From: Pandoraea iniqua
GTDB lineage: Bacteria; Pseudomonadota; Gammaproteobacteria; Burkholderiales; Burkholderiaceae
Assembly (NCBI RefSeq): GCF_902459685.1
Contig: NZ_CABPSF010000001.1
Location: 186,001 to 250,000, forward strand
Direction of reading: 5' to 3'
Length of the DNA stretch: 64,000 nucleotides
Part shown: positions 36,994-50,340 of the stretch, in pieces
Position numbering within the stretch: position 1 is the stretch's first letter
Layout: the number at the start of each line of letters is the position of its first letter
Program-made: the position numbers and the translations under genes
Notes under the pieces: model-generated
Told to the model about the DNA's origin: nothing
Database searches by the model: none
What the model saw: only the letters and a program-made list of their open reading frames with translations

Positions 36994-37317
36994 TGCGCCT
37001 CCTGTTGATGCGCCGCGCCGTGGCGGCGCGCTGCGACGCTCCGGTCTGCGCCGGGGCGTCTGTCTCCATGGTTGTCTCGTGACCGCGCGTTGGACCGGCG
37101 GCTGTTTTTTCGATAATGGCTGTTGCGGGGACTGCGGATAAGTCTCGGAAATGCTTAGGTAAGCTCAGGCAAACCGACGCTGCAAACGGCCGCGCGCCGG
37201 AACTTCAGTACGTCAGTACTTCAGGACTTCAGGACTTCAGGACGAGAGCGGCAAACTTCGGTGATTCGCCGCGCGCAGTGCCGCACGGCGAAGAGGCGAT
37301 GAAGACGCGTCGGCCGG
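36994..37317. other. Intergenic region with short tandem repeat
   Basis: 324 bases between two leftward genes. It holds a GC-rich hairpin near 37010-37031 (GCGCCG.../...CGGCGC) and three exact copies of TTCAGGAC at 37220-37243, preceded by degenerate copies. No gene is supported; it probably contains the MFS promoter. Confidence 0.5.
37220..37243. repeat. 8-bp tandem repeat, three copies
   Basis: TTCAGGAC occurs three times head to tail, with related CAGTAC units just before it. A slippage-type simple repeat, about 75 bases after the dehydrogenase stop. Confidence 0.8.
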
Positions 37318-44591: not shown

Positions 44592-45446
44592 TCAGCTCAG
44601 GTACTGGCTCGAGAACAGCACCACGGCCGAGGCGACGAGGCAGTAGATACCGAACAGGTACCAGCGGCCATGCTCCAGCCAGCGCGAGAGCCAGCGCAGG
44701 GCGATCAGGCCCGCGAAGAAGCTGAACACCATGCCCACGAGACACGGCGTGAGCACCGTCATAAAGTGGCCCGAGAATGCCTGCGTAGCGCCCGATTTGT
44801 ACAGACGGTACGCCTCTTTGACGATCACCGGCGGGGTGAGCACCACGGCGAGCGCGAAGCTGAATTCTTCGACGCGAATCTTGTCGAGCCCGCGCAGCAT
44901 GCCGGTCGAAATGGTCGAGCCCGAGCGCGAGAAACCACGGAACGGCAGGCACACGCCCTGCACCGCACCGATCCACGCGGAGTCGGCGGCGCGCATCGGA
45001 CGGTCGCCCATCGGCGGACGTTTGCGGCCCGAGATGAGGATCAGGATGCCCGCCATCGCGAGACCCGCCGAGATGATGTACAGGTTGCCGAACAGATGCT
45101 CGATCTCGGAATGCTGCGTGCCGCGCATCAGCACCTTCTCGATGAACAGCATCAGCGCAATGCCGATCACGCCGGTAAAGGCGGTGGCGACAATCACCTG
45201 CTTGGCGTTGTGGACGAAGTCGCGGCGGGACGAGAAGTAACGCTCGCGCCACGATTTCCAGAAGTACACGATCACCGCCAGCATCGTGCCGGTGTGCAAC
45301 ATCACCAGCAGCAAAGTCATCTCGGGGGCGGTCGGGTCGAGCCCCATCAGCTTCTCGGCCATGATGACGTGCGCGGAGCTTGAAACGGGCAACAACTCCG
45401 CCACGCCCTGCACAATCGCGAGCACCAGCACTTGCAAATAGTCCAT
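44592..45446 (-). CDS. uppP: Undecaprenyl-diphosphatase (UppP/BacA family)
   Basis: A 284-residue, multi-span inner-membrane phosphatase that recycles undecaprenyl pyrophosphate for cell-wall synthesis and can give bacitracin tolerance. The two catalytic motifs are present in variant form: QGVAELLPVSSSAH (usual TEFLPVSSTGH) and PFRGFSRSGST (usual PGxSRSGAT). The variants suggest the second-copy UppP branch seen in several proteobacteria. ATG 45446 follows AAGGAT. It is convergent with the large unknown gene. Confidence 0.9.
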   Translation of the reverse strand: MDYLQVLVLAIVQGVAELLPVSSSAHVIMAEKLMGLDPTAPEMTLLLVMLHTGTMLAVIVYFWKSWRERYFSSRRDFVHNAKQVIVATAFTGVIGIALMLFIEKVLMRGTQHSEIEHLFGNLYIISAGLAMAGILILISGRKRPPMGDRPMRAADSAWIGAVQGVCLPFRGFSRSGSTISTGMLRGLDKIRVEEFSFALAVVLTPPVIVKEAYRLYKSGATQAFSGHFMTVLTPCLVGMVFSFFAGLIALRWLSRWLEHGRWYLFGIYCLVASAVVLFSSQYLS

Positions 45447-45637
45447 GCGCAATCCTTGGGAAATGGGCAAGCACACTACGCTGCAATCATGTCGTTTTGG
45501 TGACAGTCATATGACGGCGTCGCCGATCCCTGCCCCCGACCGGCTGCCGCGCATGATACCCCGTCAGAATTGGTCTTGAATGAGGTCTTTGCGTGGGTAT
45601 TTTGCCGGCCGTCGGCGCGCCATCGCGCTGAAATGAC

Positions 45638-45704: not shown

Positions 45705-47024
45705 TCAGAGGCGCGCGAGGGCCTGATCCAGATCGGCCAGCAGGTCGTCGATATGCTCGATACCGATCGACAGGCGCACGGTTTCCTCGCTCACACCGGC
45801 CTTGCGCAACTCTTCCGGCGAGAGCTGGCGGTGCGTGGTCGATGCCGGGTGCGTGGCCAGCGACTTGGCGTCGCCGATGTTCACGAGGCGCGTGAAGAGT
45901 TGCAACGCATCTTGGAACGATGCGCCGGCCGCACGGCCGCCCTTCACCCCGAACGTCAGGATGCCCGGACCGCGTCCCGACAGATACTTCTTCACGAGCG
46001 CGTTGTCGGGATGCTCGGGCAAACCGGCGTAGTTCACCCACTCGACCTTCGGGTGCTGCTTGAGGAACTGCGCCACCTTCAACGCGTTTTCGGTAATGCG
46101 GTCCAGTCGCAGTGCCAGCGTCTCGATGCCTTGCAGGATCTGGAAGGCGTTGAACGGCGAGATGGCCGCGCCGGTGTTGCGCAGCGGCACGACGCGCGCA
46201 CGGCCGATGTACGCGGCCGGCCCGAAGGCTTCCGTGTAGACCACGCCGTGATAGCTCACATCGGGCTCGTTCAGGCGCTTGAAGCGCGTCTTATGGTCGG
46301 CCCACGGGAATTTGCCGGAGTCGACGATGGCGCCGCCCAGACTCGTGCCGTGCCCGCCCAGATACTTGGTGAGCGAATGCACGACGATGTCGGCACCGTG
46401 CTCGAACGGACGCAGCAGATACGGCGACGGCACCGTGTTGTCGATGATGAGCGGAATGCCGTGACGATGCGCAATTTCCGCCAGCTTGGCGATGTCGGTG
46501 ACGTTGCCCAGCGGGTTGCCGACGGATTCGGCGAAGATCGCTTTGGTCTTCTCGTCGATGAGCGGCTCGAACGACTCGGGTTCACGCGGGTCGGCAAAGC
46601 GCGTGGTGATGCCCGAGAGCGGCAACGTGTGCGCCAGCAGGTTGTAGGTGCCGCCGTAGAGCGCGCTCGCCGCCACGATGTTGTCGCCCGCCTCGGCAAT
46701 CGTCTGAATCGCGTACGTGACGGCCGCCTGACCCGAGGCGAGGGCCAGCGCGGCAATGCCGCCTTCGAGCGCGGCGACGCGCTGCTCGAGCACGTCCTGC
46801 GTCGGGTTCATGATGCGGGTGTAGATGTTGCCGGGCACTTTCAAGTCGAACAGATCGGCGCCGTGTTGCGTGTCGTCGAACGCATACGCCACGGTCTGGT
46901 AGATCGGCACCGCCACCGCACGCGTGGTCGGGTCGGGGCGATAGCCGCCGTGCACGGCCAGCGTTTCGAGTCGCCACTTAGGCGCTTGTGCGTTCTCTTC
47001 GGTGCTCTGTGTCTTCTCGGTCAT
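45705..47024 (-). CDS. metY: O-acetylhomoserine aminocarboxypropyltransferase
   Basis: A 439-residue PLP enzyme of the Cys/Met metabolism family making homocysteine from O-acetylhomoserine and sulfide. The N-terminal LAVHGGYRPDPTTRAVAVPI, the PLP lysine in HSLTKYLGGHGTSLGG and the C-terminal SLATHPASTTH typify MetY; the length is right for MetY rather than MetB (about 390). Upstream lie a GTTCCC/GGGAAC hairpin and a 13-bp tandem repeat. No sulfur-assimilation genes are adjacent. Confidence 0.92.
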   Translation of the reverse strand: MTEKTQSTEENAQAPKWRLETLAVHGGYRPDPTTRAVAVPIYQTVAYAFDDTQHGADLFDLKVPGNIYTRIMNPTQDVLEQRVAALEGGIAALALASGQAAVTYAIQTIAEAGDNIVAASALYGGTYNLLAHTLPLSGITTRFADPREPESFEPLIDEKTKAIFAESVGNPLGNVTDIAKLAEIAHRHGIPLIIDNTVPSPYLLRPFEHGADIVVHSLTKYLGGHGTSLGGAIVDSGKFPWADHKTRFKRLNEPDVSYHGVVYTEAFGPAAYIGRARVVPLRNTGAAISPFNAFQILQGIETLALRLDRITENALKVAQFLKQHPKVEWVNYAGLPEHPDNALVKKYLSGRGPGILTFGVKGGRAAGASFQDALQLFTRLVNIGDAKSLATHPASTTHRQLSPEELRKAGVSEETVRLSIGIEHIDDLLADLDQALARL

Positions 47025-47076: not shown

Positions 47077-47115
47077 GCGAGTTTGTTTAGCGGGTTTGTT
47101 TAGCGAGTTTGTTTA
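47077..47115. repeat. 13-bp tandem repeat, three copies, upstream of metY
   Basis: GCGAGTTTGTTTA, GCGGGTTTGTTTA, GCGAGTTTGTTTA head to tail, 53-91 bases before the metY start. May be a regulatory array or a slippage repeat. Confidence 0.8.
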
Positions 47116-47296
47116 GGTATCCGATGACATTCTAATGGTCCGCTCCGCGACGCCTTATCTCTGATCGGCACATGCTTAGCTCGGCCCGGGTGCAACGGTT
47201 CGTAATATCGCGCGTAATAGCGCTTACGTTTGGGCGTTATTCGGCTGGATATACTCGATTCACGCTGATTCACCACCGCTACGGAGTCGCCCGATC

Positions 47297-48247
47297 ATGA
47301 CGTTTCGTTCTGCGCTTTTTGCGCGTCTCAGCACGCACGCCGGTGTGCCGGGGCGTGCCGCTTTGCGATGTGCGCTGGTGTTGGCCTGCATGGCGGGCGC
47401 GTGGTCCGCGACGGCGCATGCGCAGGAGAAGATCAGCATTCCTTCGCTGGATACGGACAGCGCCGGTAAGCCGGTGATGCTCGATGCGTACCTGTTTCGC
47501 GCAGCCAACGCCAAGGGGCCGACACCCGCGGTCGTGTTCATGCATGGCTGTAACGGGATGATTACGCGCAAGGGCAAGATCGACAGCCGCGAGCTCGATT
47601 GGGCGCAACGATTCAACGCGCAGGGGTATACGGTGCTGGCGGTCGACAGCTTTACGTCGCGCGGGCAGGCCAGCGAATGCCGGGGTGGCGGAGATGTTCG
47701 ACCGTCGGTGGAGCGCCCGCGTGATGCCTACGGCGCGTTGCGGTATTTGCAGCAACTGCCGGGCATTGCGCCGGATCGCATCGCGCTGATGGGCTGGTCG
47801 CATGGCGGTGGCACGGTGCTGTACTCCGTGGGGCCGCGCAGCCCGGGCAAAGTGCCGGTGAGCGCATCGACGCCTGCACCCACGCCGCCTGACTTCGTGG
47901 CAGCCGTCGCGTTCTATCCGGGGTGGTGCAACACGAAGGCCCAAGGGCCCGACTGGTCGACGCGTATCCCGTTGCTCGTGCTGATCGGTGCCGATGACGT
48001 CTGGTCCAAGCCGGTGCCGTGCGACGCGTTCGTGAAAGACGTGACGGCCAAGGGCGCGCCGATCACCTTCCACATGTATCCGGGCGCGTATCACGACTTC
48101 GACTATCCGAATCTGCCGTTGCGCGAGCGCCCTGAGTTCACCAATCCGAAAACGCATATCGTCCCGATCACCGGCACGCAGCCGGAAGCCCGCGACGACG
48201 CTATCGCTCGCGTCACTGCATTTCTGGCGAAGGCTTTTGCGTCTTGA
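47297..48247 (+). CDS. Exported dienelactone-hydrolase-like alpha/beta hydrolase
   Basis: A 316-residue secreted or periplasmic hydrolase. A signal peptide ends near ATAHA-QE. The nucleophile elbow GWSHGGG gives the catalytic Ser, with Asp in IGADDVW and His in GAYHDFDYP, in the normal order. Oxyanion-hole segment FMHGCNGM precedes it. The dienelactone-hydrolase branch acts on small esters or lactones; the natural substrate is unknown. A GCAGATGCCCG hairpin follows at 48292-48318. Confidence 0.85.
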   Translation: MTFRSALFARLSTHAGVPGRAALRCALVLACMAGAWSATAHAQEKISIPSLDTDSAGKPVMLDAYLFRAANAKGPTPAVVFMHGCNGMITRKGKIDSRELDWAQRFNAQGYTVLAVDSFTSRGQASECRGGGDVRPSVERPRDAYGALRYLQQLPGIAPDRIALMGWSHGGGTVLYSVGPRSPGKVPVSASTPAPTPPDFVAAVAFYPGWCNTKAQGPDWSTRIPLLVLIGADDVWSKPVPCDAFVKDVTAKGAPITFHMYPGAYHDFDYPNLPLRERPEFTNPKTHIVPITGTQPEARDDAIARVTAFLAKAFAS

Positions 48248-48291
48248 TATTTCGCGGCGCCAAAACGTCTAGGGAATTTGAGTGATTCGAT

Positions 48292-48318
48292 GCAGATGCC
48301 CGGCTGGCGGGCATCTGC
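48292..48318 (+). other. Strong stem-loop after the hydrolase gene
   Basis: GCAGATGCCCG pairs perfectly with CGGGCATCTGC around a 5-base loop. No T run follows, so it is either a weak terminator or a border element of the adjoining array. Confidence 0.6.
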
Positions 48319-48346
48319 GGGCGATTCGGTGGCGGTTATGCACCGG

Positions 48347-48578
48347 GTATCCACAGGTTAATCACCGCAAAACCCCGGGATTTCCACAGGTAATCCACTG
48401 GCAATGCCCCAGTTATCCAAGGCATATCCACAGCTTGTTCACGGCTTATCCACGACTTATCCACCCGAATGAGGCGACTTATCCCGTGGTTATCCCTGCG
48501 CTATCCCCTGACTGTCCACAGACTTGTCCCTGTGCCAATCACAGGTTGTTCACTGGGTTATCGACAGACTTATCCACA
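48347..48578 (+). repeat. Phased 11-bp array of DnaA-box-like sequences
   Basis: About 21 degenerate units repeat every 11 (at the right end 11-12) bases, all in one orientation, with consensus TTATCCACAGG. Examples: GTATCCACAGG at 48347, ATATCCACAGC at 48424, TTATCCACGAC at 48446, TTATCCACCCG at 48457, TTATCGACA at 48558 and the exact DnaA box TTATCCACA at 48570-48578. The period is close to one helical turn, so all boxes face the same side of DNA. A role in DnaA binding or titration is inferred. Confidence 0.8.
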
Positions 48579-48610
48579 ATCCGTCGACGTGGCATCGTTT
48601 CGCGCGGACA

Positions 48611-48644
48611 AAACAAAATCGGCCGCCAGAATTGCGGCCGATTT
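48611..48644 (-). terminator. Terminator of the second DUF4148 gene
   Basis: On the minus strand AAATCGGCCGC pairs with GCGGCCGATTT (11 bp, 7-base loop) and TTGTTTTG follows; 76 bases after the stop. Confidence 0.8.
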
Positions 48645-48719
48645 GTGATCGGTGAGGGTGCGTGACCCGGAGTCGCGTCGCGCCTAACTGCGGCGCCGGC
48701 TCACGGGCACATACGGCGA

Positions 48720-49022
48720 TCAGCTACCGAAGTAAGTGCTACCTGCGCTGGCAACGTTGGTCACCGAGCCTGCCATCACCGGCTGTGCGGCACCGCCAAC
48801 CTTGGCAACCGTCGTCGGATACACCGAGTCGTGTTGTTCGAGCAGACCGGCTTGCTCGGCTTGGACGAGTTCCGTGCGGACCTGTGCGCGGCTCACGGCG
48901 CTAGTTTGCGGAACCCATGCGAATTCCGAAGGACCTTCGAAGGCGTCGCTGGCAAAGGCCGAACCGGCCGACACAGCAAGCATTGCGGAAACCAGAGCCG
49001 AGGTAATAAGAGTGCGTTTCAT
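48720..49022 (-). CDS. DUF4148 family small secreted protein
   Basis: A 100-residue exported protein. The ATG at 49022 follows CAGGAGAAAACATC. The signal peptide ends at GSAFA-SD. The mature part contains one DUF4148 unit, SRAQVRTELVQAEQAGLL, and ends SAGSTYFGS, an ending shared with the Gln-rich protein at 35444. Function unknown; it is the second family member in the window. Confidence 0.82.
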   Translation of the reverse strand: MKRTLITSALVSAMLAVSAGSAFASDAFEGPSEFAWVPQTSAVSRAQVRTELVQAEQAGLLEQHDSVYPTTVAKVGGAAQPVMAGSVTNVASAGSTYFGS

Positions 49023-49334
49023 GATGTTTTCTCCTGTCGTTTGAACGTTGGCGGTGTTCGTTTCACCGTCGACAGTTGCAGTCTATTGCTGCCATCAATC
49101 ACAATAAACACGATAATTGTCTATTTTAAATTGCTGTTTTAGAAATAATGTGCGCAAGACGGGGCGGATGCAGACACGCAAGTGAGCGCTAACGCAGCAG
49201 TGGCGAGGGTTTCGGGCTGGGGGAGGTCTGAATGCGACACCGCCGCCCGGGCGTGAGCCTCGGGCGGCGGTGTGGTGGATCAGCGAATCAGGGGCTGATC
49301 GCTGGATCGCGGTGCGGCGAGATGCCTAGGCGGA
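49023..49334. other. Intergenic region with AT-rich promoter zone and long stem-loop
   Basis: 312 bases. 49080-49150 is strongly AT-rich, fitting a promoter for the DUF4148 gene. A 13-bp perfect stem ACACCGCCGCCCG/CGGGCGGCGGTGT sits at 49237-49273, 62 bases beyond the stop of the next minus-strand gene, without a T run in either direction. Confidence 0.6.
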
Positions 49335-49944: not shown

Positions 49945-50289
49945 ATGGATTCACCCAAGCAAGATCAAGCCCCGCAAGCCACCGCCAACACTGCCAGCGA
50001 GACCTATGTGCGTCTGCTGGGCGAGACCGCCAAGATCGACTGGAAGGATCTGGAATCGTTTTTCGCGCGCGGTGTGCTGCTGTACGTCGCGCCGGGCGTC
50101 GATCTCGTGTCGGTCGCCGAAGCCGTCGCCAACGACGACACACCTGTCGTGACCCAGTGGCTCTCGTCCGGCATGGTGGAACGCATGCAGGCCGAACAAG
50201 CCAGCGATTTTGCCGCCCGCACCCCCGAATTGTGGGCCGTGGTGGTCGCGCCGTGGGTGCTCGTGCAGGAGCGCTCCGTCAGTCCGTGA
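49945..50289 (+). CDS. DUF2288 family protein
   Basis: A 114-residue soluble protein matching the DUF2288 pattern: ETAKIDWKDLESFFARGVLLYVAPGVDLVSV and DDTPVVTQWLSSGMVERM, with a C-terminal WAVVVAPWVLVQER. The family is widespread in proteobacteria and has no known function. It is convergent with the next gene across a 13-bp triplet repeat. Confidence 0.8.
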   Translation: MDSPKQDQAPQATANTASETYVRLLGETAKIDWKDLESFFARGVLLYVAPGVDLVSVAEAVANDDTPVVTQWLSSGMVERMQAEQASDFAARTPELWAVVVAPWVLVQERSVSP

Positions 50290-50302
50290 GGTCGGTAGGT
50301 AG

Positions 50303-50340
50303 GGTTAGTCGGTGAGGTTAGTCGGTGGGGTTAGTCGGTA
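50303..50340. repeat. 13-bp tandem repeat, three copies, across a gene end
   Basis: GGTTAGTCGGTGA, GGTTAGTCGGTGG and GGTTAGTCGGTA in tandem. The third copy covers the stop codon of the minus-strand gene, so it encodes its last residues (AGITD). Confidence 0.8.

Follow-up and report, generated by a model that had tools for sequence, protein, structure and literature searches.

A conserved one-sided array of about 20 phased DnaA-box-like sites near dnaA in Pandoraea, probably a DnaA-binding control locus outside oriC

What might some 20 DnaA-box-like sites do, set in one direction and about one helical turn apart, at a place that is not the replication origin? The question is raised by a 64,000-nucleotide stretch of the Pandoraea iniqua chromosome (the window; G000:C1:186001-250000 of a 6.34 Mb genome), in which a first, sequence-only reading recognised such a run and proposed that it could be a DnaA reservoir, a timing locus or a secondary origin.

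The array occupies 48336-48578 of the + strand and comprises 22 DnaA-box-like positions, an additional upstream unit at 48336 extending the approximately 21 units over about 232 bases of that reading. The steps from 5' to 3' are sixteen of 11 bp followed by 12, 11, 11, 12 and 12 bp. Folding at 11 bp without the use of any motif yields TTATCCAC, the DnaA-box core, i.e. the core of TTATCCACA; the first 16 units folded at this period read T-T-A-T-C-C-A-C followed by a G-rich spacer. The run had been called uninterrupted, and its place and near-constant spacing are as described, but its continuity is not: one position (48468) matches at only 1/9, four units are poor (48369 and 48402, 4/9; 48524 and 48535, 5/9), and Tandem Repeats Finder detected only 48413-48464 of the array. 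The single direction was borne out, all 11 boxes of at least 7/9 against TTATCCACA being on the + strand with 0 on the - strand, as was the exact TTATCCACA at 48570. In 2000 dinucleotide-preserving shuffles of the array's own sequence the number of such boxes averages 0.85 with a maximum of 5, and the best 16-site sum at 11-bp spacing, 99 in the array, averages 50.2 (sd 3.0, maximum 64). The 14-site sum is 87 at period 11 versus 42-47 at the other periods from 8 to 16, autocorrelation maxima fall at 11, 22 and 33, and the array is 51% GC. The proposed alignment on one helix face is only roughly correct: for a helix of 10.5 bp per turn, a mean step of 11.14 bp rotates each site by about 22 degrees relative to the one before. 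The stretch has in common with DnaA-box clusters box matches beyond chance in short non-coding DNA, and with the DnaA-oligomerising regions of oriC same-direction sites, 2-bp spacers and an adjoining strong box. The positions of particular concern are the following.

48468..48476, + strand: position in phase but not itself a box (1/9), with 12 units to its 5' side and 9 units to its 3' side
48535..48543, + strand: fourth site from the 3' end, weak (5/9; 2-6 of 9 in 27 of 27 arrays)
48558..48566, + strand: second box, TTATCGACA, with a 3-bp spacer to the anchor
48570..48578, + strand: 3' anchor box, exact TTATCCACA; TT(A/G/T)T(C/T)CACA across 24 aligned full arrays

The sequence-only reading had allowed that the array might be lost in close relatives or might belong to a genome-wide repeat family, and neither was found. 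With the 472-bp intergenic DNA as query the array was recovered from 27 of 32 Pandoraea genomes (its own included) and from 0 of 29 genomes outside the genus, and a model built from the 24 full-length arrays among the 27 adds G014 (42.7 bits), for 28 of 32 in all. In its own genome this sequence-only model has two matches at E≤0.1 under strict filters, both inside the array; searched on 400 kb alone it gives two more weak matches (13.0 and 12.7 bits), which fall around dnaA and within an oriC-like cluster. The model search found no array in G003 (1.2 Mb), G023, G025 and G029 under strict filters that score 11 candidates per genome and may miss weak arrays. The first 160 kb of G025 has neither array nor neighbour genes, except for one 25%-identity LysR match, and the 190 kb read of G003 yielded no neighbour gene. 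These four genomes, together with three others (G004, G019 and G028) whose short arrays have only about 6-7 units, indicate that the array is dispensable.

Conservation is most exact at the 3' end. Every one of the 27 arrays contains exactly one TTATC[G/T]ACA-3 bp-TT...CACA, so that the off-consensus base of the second box is preserved in 27 of 27 arrays checked, and the first two 3' steps are 12 and 12 bp in all 27. Greedy chaining, a procedure that stops early in several species, can absorb small slips and was used for the 3' steps only, gave the full 3' series of 12, 12, 11, 11, 12, 11, 11, 11 for 18 of the 27. A firmer check is provided by scores at fixed offsets from the last box, by which 23 of the 24 full arrays share a near-identical strength profile over the nine 3' sites, the exception being G005, which departs past the sixth site; in the three short arrays only about five of the nine sites are in register. 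Column identity in the 3' stretch of the 24 arrays is 85% in boxes and 71% in spacers. The full arrays contain 9 to 14 good boxes (mean 11.75). Those at 66-69% DNA identity (G001, G008, G012, G017, G020, G022, G030 and some others) keep 10-13, versus about 2.3-2.7 under neutral drift from G000; for the closest relatives (78-89% identical) drift alone would leave 4.5-7.6. Internal gaps in pairwise alignments measure 1-2 bp (54), 9-12 (82), 21-22 (21), 33 (6), 44 (2) and 55 (3), with none of 3-8 or 13-20 bp, among 123 of the 276 pairs from the 24 full arrays, namely those with at least 72% identity, which are not independent of one another, the first 25 columns being ignored and aligners being prone to favour period-sized gaps in periodic DNA. 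Since the gaps are of 1-2 bp or near multiples of 11, units appear to have been gained and lost with the phase kept.

Several other origins for such a stretch were considered and rejected. As to coding sequence, ORF 48282-48665 crosses the array mechanically; the 240 bp that finish with the last box have no open + frame in 8 of 27 species, the open frame in the other 19 being as expected for a stop-poor stretch, and unit-sized 11-bp indels shift the frame. As to a structured RNA, there was no Rfam match at 48000-49200. As to a plasmid or phage iteron or a mobile repeat, there was no match in 72,556 plasmid and 50,697 phage records (distant blastn, E≤1e-5), and the array model finds the array alone in its own genome at E≤0.1.

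The chromosomal place of the array is likewise conserved. As the sequence-only reading had stated, dnaA is absent from the window; it is at C1:107.4 kb and the array at C1:234.3 kb, a separation of 127 kb. Where the two share a contig, in 20 Pandoraea genomes, the array is without exception downstream of dnaA, at 33.4-128.3 kb, a constancy of place of the kind seen in datA-type loci; in the remaining 8 of the 28 array-bearing genomes the two are on separate contigs. No other part of C1:1-400,000 is as densely set with boxes of at least 7/9 as the array (11 per 300 bp, one strand); next come 7 boxes on both strands at 85.2 kb, three of them exact (more than in the array), that adjoin AT-rich DNA. 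This second cluster (L007:5279-5509, C1:85.28-85.51 kb) is AT-rich and intergenic, has exact TTATCCACA on both strands together with GTTAAC sites, and lies 22 kb from dnaA in the vicinity of the GC-skew minimum. It is likely to be oriC, positioned away from dnaA itself. A third small cluster at C1:29.70-30.00 kb (L044) has five DnaA boxes of at least 8/9 on both strands. In the 400 kb examined the GC-skew minimum falls at C1:94.4 kb, about 140 kb from the array, and in place the array does not match an oriC, being neither at this minimum nor adjoining dnaA.

The surroundings of the array comprise the following genes and signals, left neighbours being counted as the nearest among seven genes tested in 27 species.

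44592..45476, - strand: UppP/BacA, nearest left neighbour in 3 of 27 species, those with shortened arrays
45705..47024, - strand: PLP enzyme of Cys/Met metabolism, the closest gene on the left in 4 of 27 species
47297..48247, + strand: dienelactone-hydrolase-like protein, transcribed toward the array and flanking it on the left in 20 of 27 cases
48292..48318, no strand: perfect hairpin of 11 bp immediately 5' of the array and past the hydrolase stop, with no T run
48616..48644, - strand: hairpin resembling an intrinsic terminator (11-bp stem, T tail), which separates the DUF4148 gene from the array
48720..49022, - strand: DUF4148 protein, its gene convergent with the array and next to it on the right in 25 of 27 cases, and in G014

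The hairpin at 48292..48318 is a possible terminator, although the terminator scan did not report it as one. Both convergent neighbours, hydrolase and DUF4148, are found in 18 of 27 species; the left gene varies between species and the array stays. Short tandem repeats are also found in the window: GCGAGTTTGTTTA x3 at 47077-47116, between the Cys/Met enzyme and the hydrolase; a 13/26-bp repeat near the array at 50281-50339; and the 8-bp ACTTCAGG x5 at 37202-37243. The hydrolase gene was rejected as a carrier of the array: of 24 loci found by a hydrolase-gene search, 12 of 12 from Pandoraea have the array (9-13 boxes per 260 bp, one strand), and the 12 non-Pandoraea loci, some of them short, hold at most 4 boxes each.

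Five other explanations bear weighing against that of a DnaA sink. That the array is a DnaA-responsive transcription element for the DUF4148, hydrolase, UppP or Cys/Met enzyme gene appears decidedly improbable. The DUF4148 gene is its right neighbour in nearly all species, and in 7 of 27 the closest left gene among those tested (the Cys/Met enzyme in 4 species, UppP in 3) begins at the array side, so that a promoter role is possible there. However, in the present genome the array is downstream of both neighbours and has the terminator-like hairpin on its DUF4148 side, no sigma-70-type promoter match was found at 48150-48800, and the genes concerned are not constant: three kinds of left gene occur, with a fourth, a cytochrome-c-like ORF (read by eye from the sequence), opposite the DUF4148 gene in G014, and G002 and G006 keep the array with no DUF4148 match. 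A switch of the datA or DARS type, in which an ordered oligomer would drive ATP hydrolysis or nucleotide exchange and shift the ATP-DnaA:ADP-DnaA ratio, is unlikely but has the better claim to attention. datA and DARS are likewise non-coding box loci at conserved distances from oriC (PMC4585315, excerpt), and that the phase is kept speaks for an ordered oligomer rather than for site number alone. However, datA needs its IHF site (PMC4585315, excerpt) and the strict IHF consensus WATCARNNNNTTR has no match on either strand at 48000-49100 of this genome; the best 8-site phased score in an 8-kb region about E. coli datA is 33 versus 55 for the array, a weak comparison in that the same scoring gives the known oriC arrays only 36.

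A secondary replication origin, a proposal of the sequence-only reading that was not supported, or a displaced oriC half is very improbable. The spacing and polarity match those published for the right half of E. coli oriC (PMC4451416, excerpt), and in the genus g36, with genomes of about 2 Mb, many model matches fall 1.2-1.6 kb from the contig start, e.g. in G253 (L104:1-6000) a phased run of about 6 boxes with 11-12 bp steps in AT-rich DNA, presumably within oriC. A stretch of 70% AT is also available at 49090-49155, about 510 bp from the array. This stretch, the nearest of its kind, is however beyond the DUF4148 gene, at its 5' end, and no AT-rich unwinding element adjoins the array, which is 51% GC within 60-bp windows of 48-73% GC at 48240-48990; the GC-skew minimum (94.4 kb), the AT-rich inverted-box cluster (85 kb) and dnaA (107 kb) are all some 127-150 kb away. 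For a polar replication-fork barrier or chromosome-organisation site, which one-sided polarity and an origin-proximal place would suit, the prospects are slighter still, since the array is on the strand opposite to dnaA in 16 of 20 genomes but on the same strand in 4, so that the fork meets it from either side, which argues against a polar barrier. Least probable of all is a decaying, functionless tandem repeat. Its units are imperfect and Tandem Repeats Finder detects only a part, but their consensus equals the core of the DnaA box, both the spacing and the strengths of the sites persist throughout a diverged genus, and the phase survives unit gain and loss.

The reading preferred here, with moderate confidence and on the evidence of sequence, is that the array is an origin-proximal DnaA-binding control locus, i.e. 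a DnaA-oligomerising sink or brake against premature re-initiation. Domain IV of the host DnaA aligns at 5.3e-31 to 1J1V, the E. coli DnaA domain solved with a DnaA box, and keeps the FGGRDHTTVLHA motif, the box-recognition domain thus being intact. Hda is present in the genome (TIGR03420, 233 bits, cut-off 194.8), and SeqA is undetectable in it by a search that recovers SeqA from E. coli. The original suggestion of a phased DnaA-box-like array acting as reservoir or timing locus is supported by boxes, spacing and place that are kept genus-wide, by the intact recognition domain of DnaA and by the outcome of the two refuting conditions considered above. DnaA, probably ATP-DnaA, would nucleate at the strong 3' boxes TTATCGACA-3 bp-TTATCCACA and extend cooperatively in the 5' direction, as one head-to-tail oligomer over about 20 weaker sites 2-3 bp apart, growth being modelled on that of each half of E. 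coli oriC. Since there is no unwinding element beside the array, this oligomer would leave the DNA closed, and it would withhold DnaA from oriC. With the array 33-128 kb from dnaA the locus should be duplicated soon after initiation, and early duplication would double the sink, with its presumed effect on timing, just when re-initiation needs blocking.

Whether such arrays extend beyond Pandoraea was approached by two model searches. The family search, at a lax E≤0.1, matches 203 of 299 genomes (some by chance), 28 of them Pandoraea, with a best outside match of 34.5 bits versus 42.7-112.6 within the genus; the order search, at E≤1e-4, matches 13 of 250 genomes, the array's own included. Places outside Pandoraea were read from both (19 from the family search, with 2-9 boxes of at least 7/9 per 500 bp, and 5 from the order search), and several are one-sided intergenic runs with 11-12 bp steps, although some are unconvincing; L102 and L161 are AT-rich with boxes on both strands. 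L158 (G353:C1:1917296-1917434), from another family of the order, has by eye about 13 in-phase one-sided units, 6 of at least 7/9, and is 284 kb from dnaA. These other Burkholderiales runs share with the Pandoraea array the 11-12 bp steps, often a strong 3' pair and in several cases a place within about 340 kb of dnaA, but are shorter and have weaker model scores. dnaA was located in 13 non-Pandoraea genomes, and the 10 outside matches that share a contig with it are about 26 to 763 kb away, 9 of 10 within 340 kb, contigs being taken as circular where near complete and draft contigs biasing the distances. Among six matches in nearly complete genomes, those of G353, G069, G472, G299 and G289 are within 285 kb of dnaA and that of G269 is not, G299 and G289 representing one locus in a single genus. 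In the genus g3 (L095, L096, L097, L100, L101, L106, L111) a one-sided run of a few boxes, mostly with 12-bp steps, recurs directly upstream of a gene starting MTNVT..., and similar boxes precede a gene starting MKQIT... (PII-like, by reading of its sequence) in L093 and L099.

These matches suggest a wider class of such arrays, as yet unproven. It is a tentative and rather doubtful generalisation that origin-proximal one-sided phased DnaA arrays make up an unrecognised class of replication control in Burkholderiales, i.e. DnaA-oligomer rulers that amount to an extended oriC half with no unwinding element and that would act as cooperative, all-or-none sinks to time re-initiation in bacteria that lack SeqA, with the longest form in Pandoraea and shorter ones in other genera. 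In the literature searched, which covered few subscription papers, no paper on both the DnaA box and Pandoraea was found; with the same coverage no report of a phased DnaA array of this kind appeared among the matches listed. How re-initiation is blocked where SeqA is lacking, and what weight chromosomal DnaA titration carries, are open questions in the field; a 2025 E. coli study notes that experimental evidence for titration-based control had previously been lacking (PMC12371093, excerpt). A compact locus of about 240 bp with about 20 phased sites can be removed, shortened by 11 bp or rephased by 5 bp, by which titration through site number becomes separable from control by an ordered oligomer, and natural variants are at hand in species with 6-7 units, about 20 units or no detectable array.

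The closest known structure is that of E. coli oriC, in which each four-site weak array faces one way with exactly 2-bp spacers, the R4-C1 spacer is 3 bp, and the strong box loads the next site so that the oligomer grows along the array (PMC4451416, excerpt). R4 is TTATCCACA and, its polarity having been checked, stands at the 3' end. With the half-arrays R4-C1-I3-C2-C3 and R5M-tau2-I1-I2 the Pandoraea array shares one-direction sites and 2-bp spacers, and with the right half the strong box with a 3-bp spacer (PMC4451416, excerpt). It is the published R4-C1-I3-C2-C3 plan, i.e. a strong 3' box with 3-bp and then mostly 2-bp spacers toward the 5' side, lengthened to about 20 sites. The differences are that each E. 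coli half has 4 sites, that the 8-site phased score is 55 in the Pandoraea array versus 36 in E. coli oriC, the Pandoraea sites being far nearer the DnaA consensus, and that the Pandoraea array is outside the origin with no adjoining unwinding element. The E. coli spacers are those of the published account (PMC4451416, excerpt), greedy chaining from R4 having missed the published low-affinity sites. In Thermotoga, paired DnaA complexes likewise form best on same-direction boxes 2 bp apart (PMC10316083, excerpt).

Among control loci outside the origin, datA is a negative regulator with five boxes and a required IHF site (PMC5295017 and PMC4585315, excerpts), its activity needing boxes 2 and 3 together with that site, and both datA and the DARS loci consist of DnaA boxes in non-coding DNA and keep their relative distance from oriC (PMC4585315, excerpt). 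The Pandoraea array resembles datA as a non-coding DnaA-box locus with a conserved side and range of distance from the origin that is presumed to lower available DnaA; unlike the five boxes and IHF site of datA (as given in those excerpts), it is contiguous and phased and has no strict IHF consensus. The ATP-hydrolysis mechanism of datA, which promotes the hydrolysis of ATP-DnaA and whose deletion leads to over-initiation, is therefore not indicated and the array is not called datA, although by analogy it is best read as working like datA. E. coli DARS1 and DARS2 too are sets of DnaA boxes in non-coding DNA with an action on DnaA, but they raise ATP-DnaA, a core of three boxes stimulating ADP release. 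They have 3 and 6 boxes and require flanking or IHF/Fis sites (PMC4585315, excerpt). In B. subtilis six DnaA-box clusters are found outside the origin and their joint removal leads to early initiation (PMC5295017, excerpt); these share with the Pandoraea array a position outside the origin but are dispersed. The Pandoraea locus is real, conserved and probably DnaA-binding, of unusual length and order, and probably of a kind already known, the DnaA-binding control locus outside oriC.
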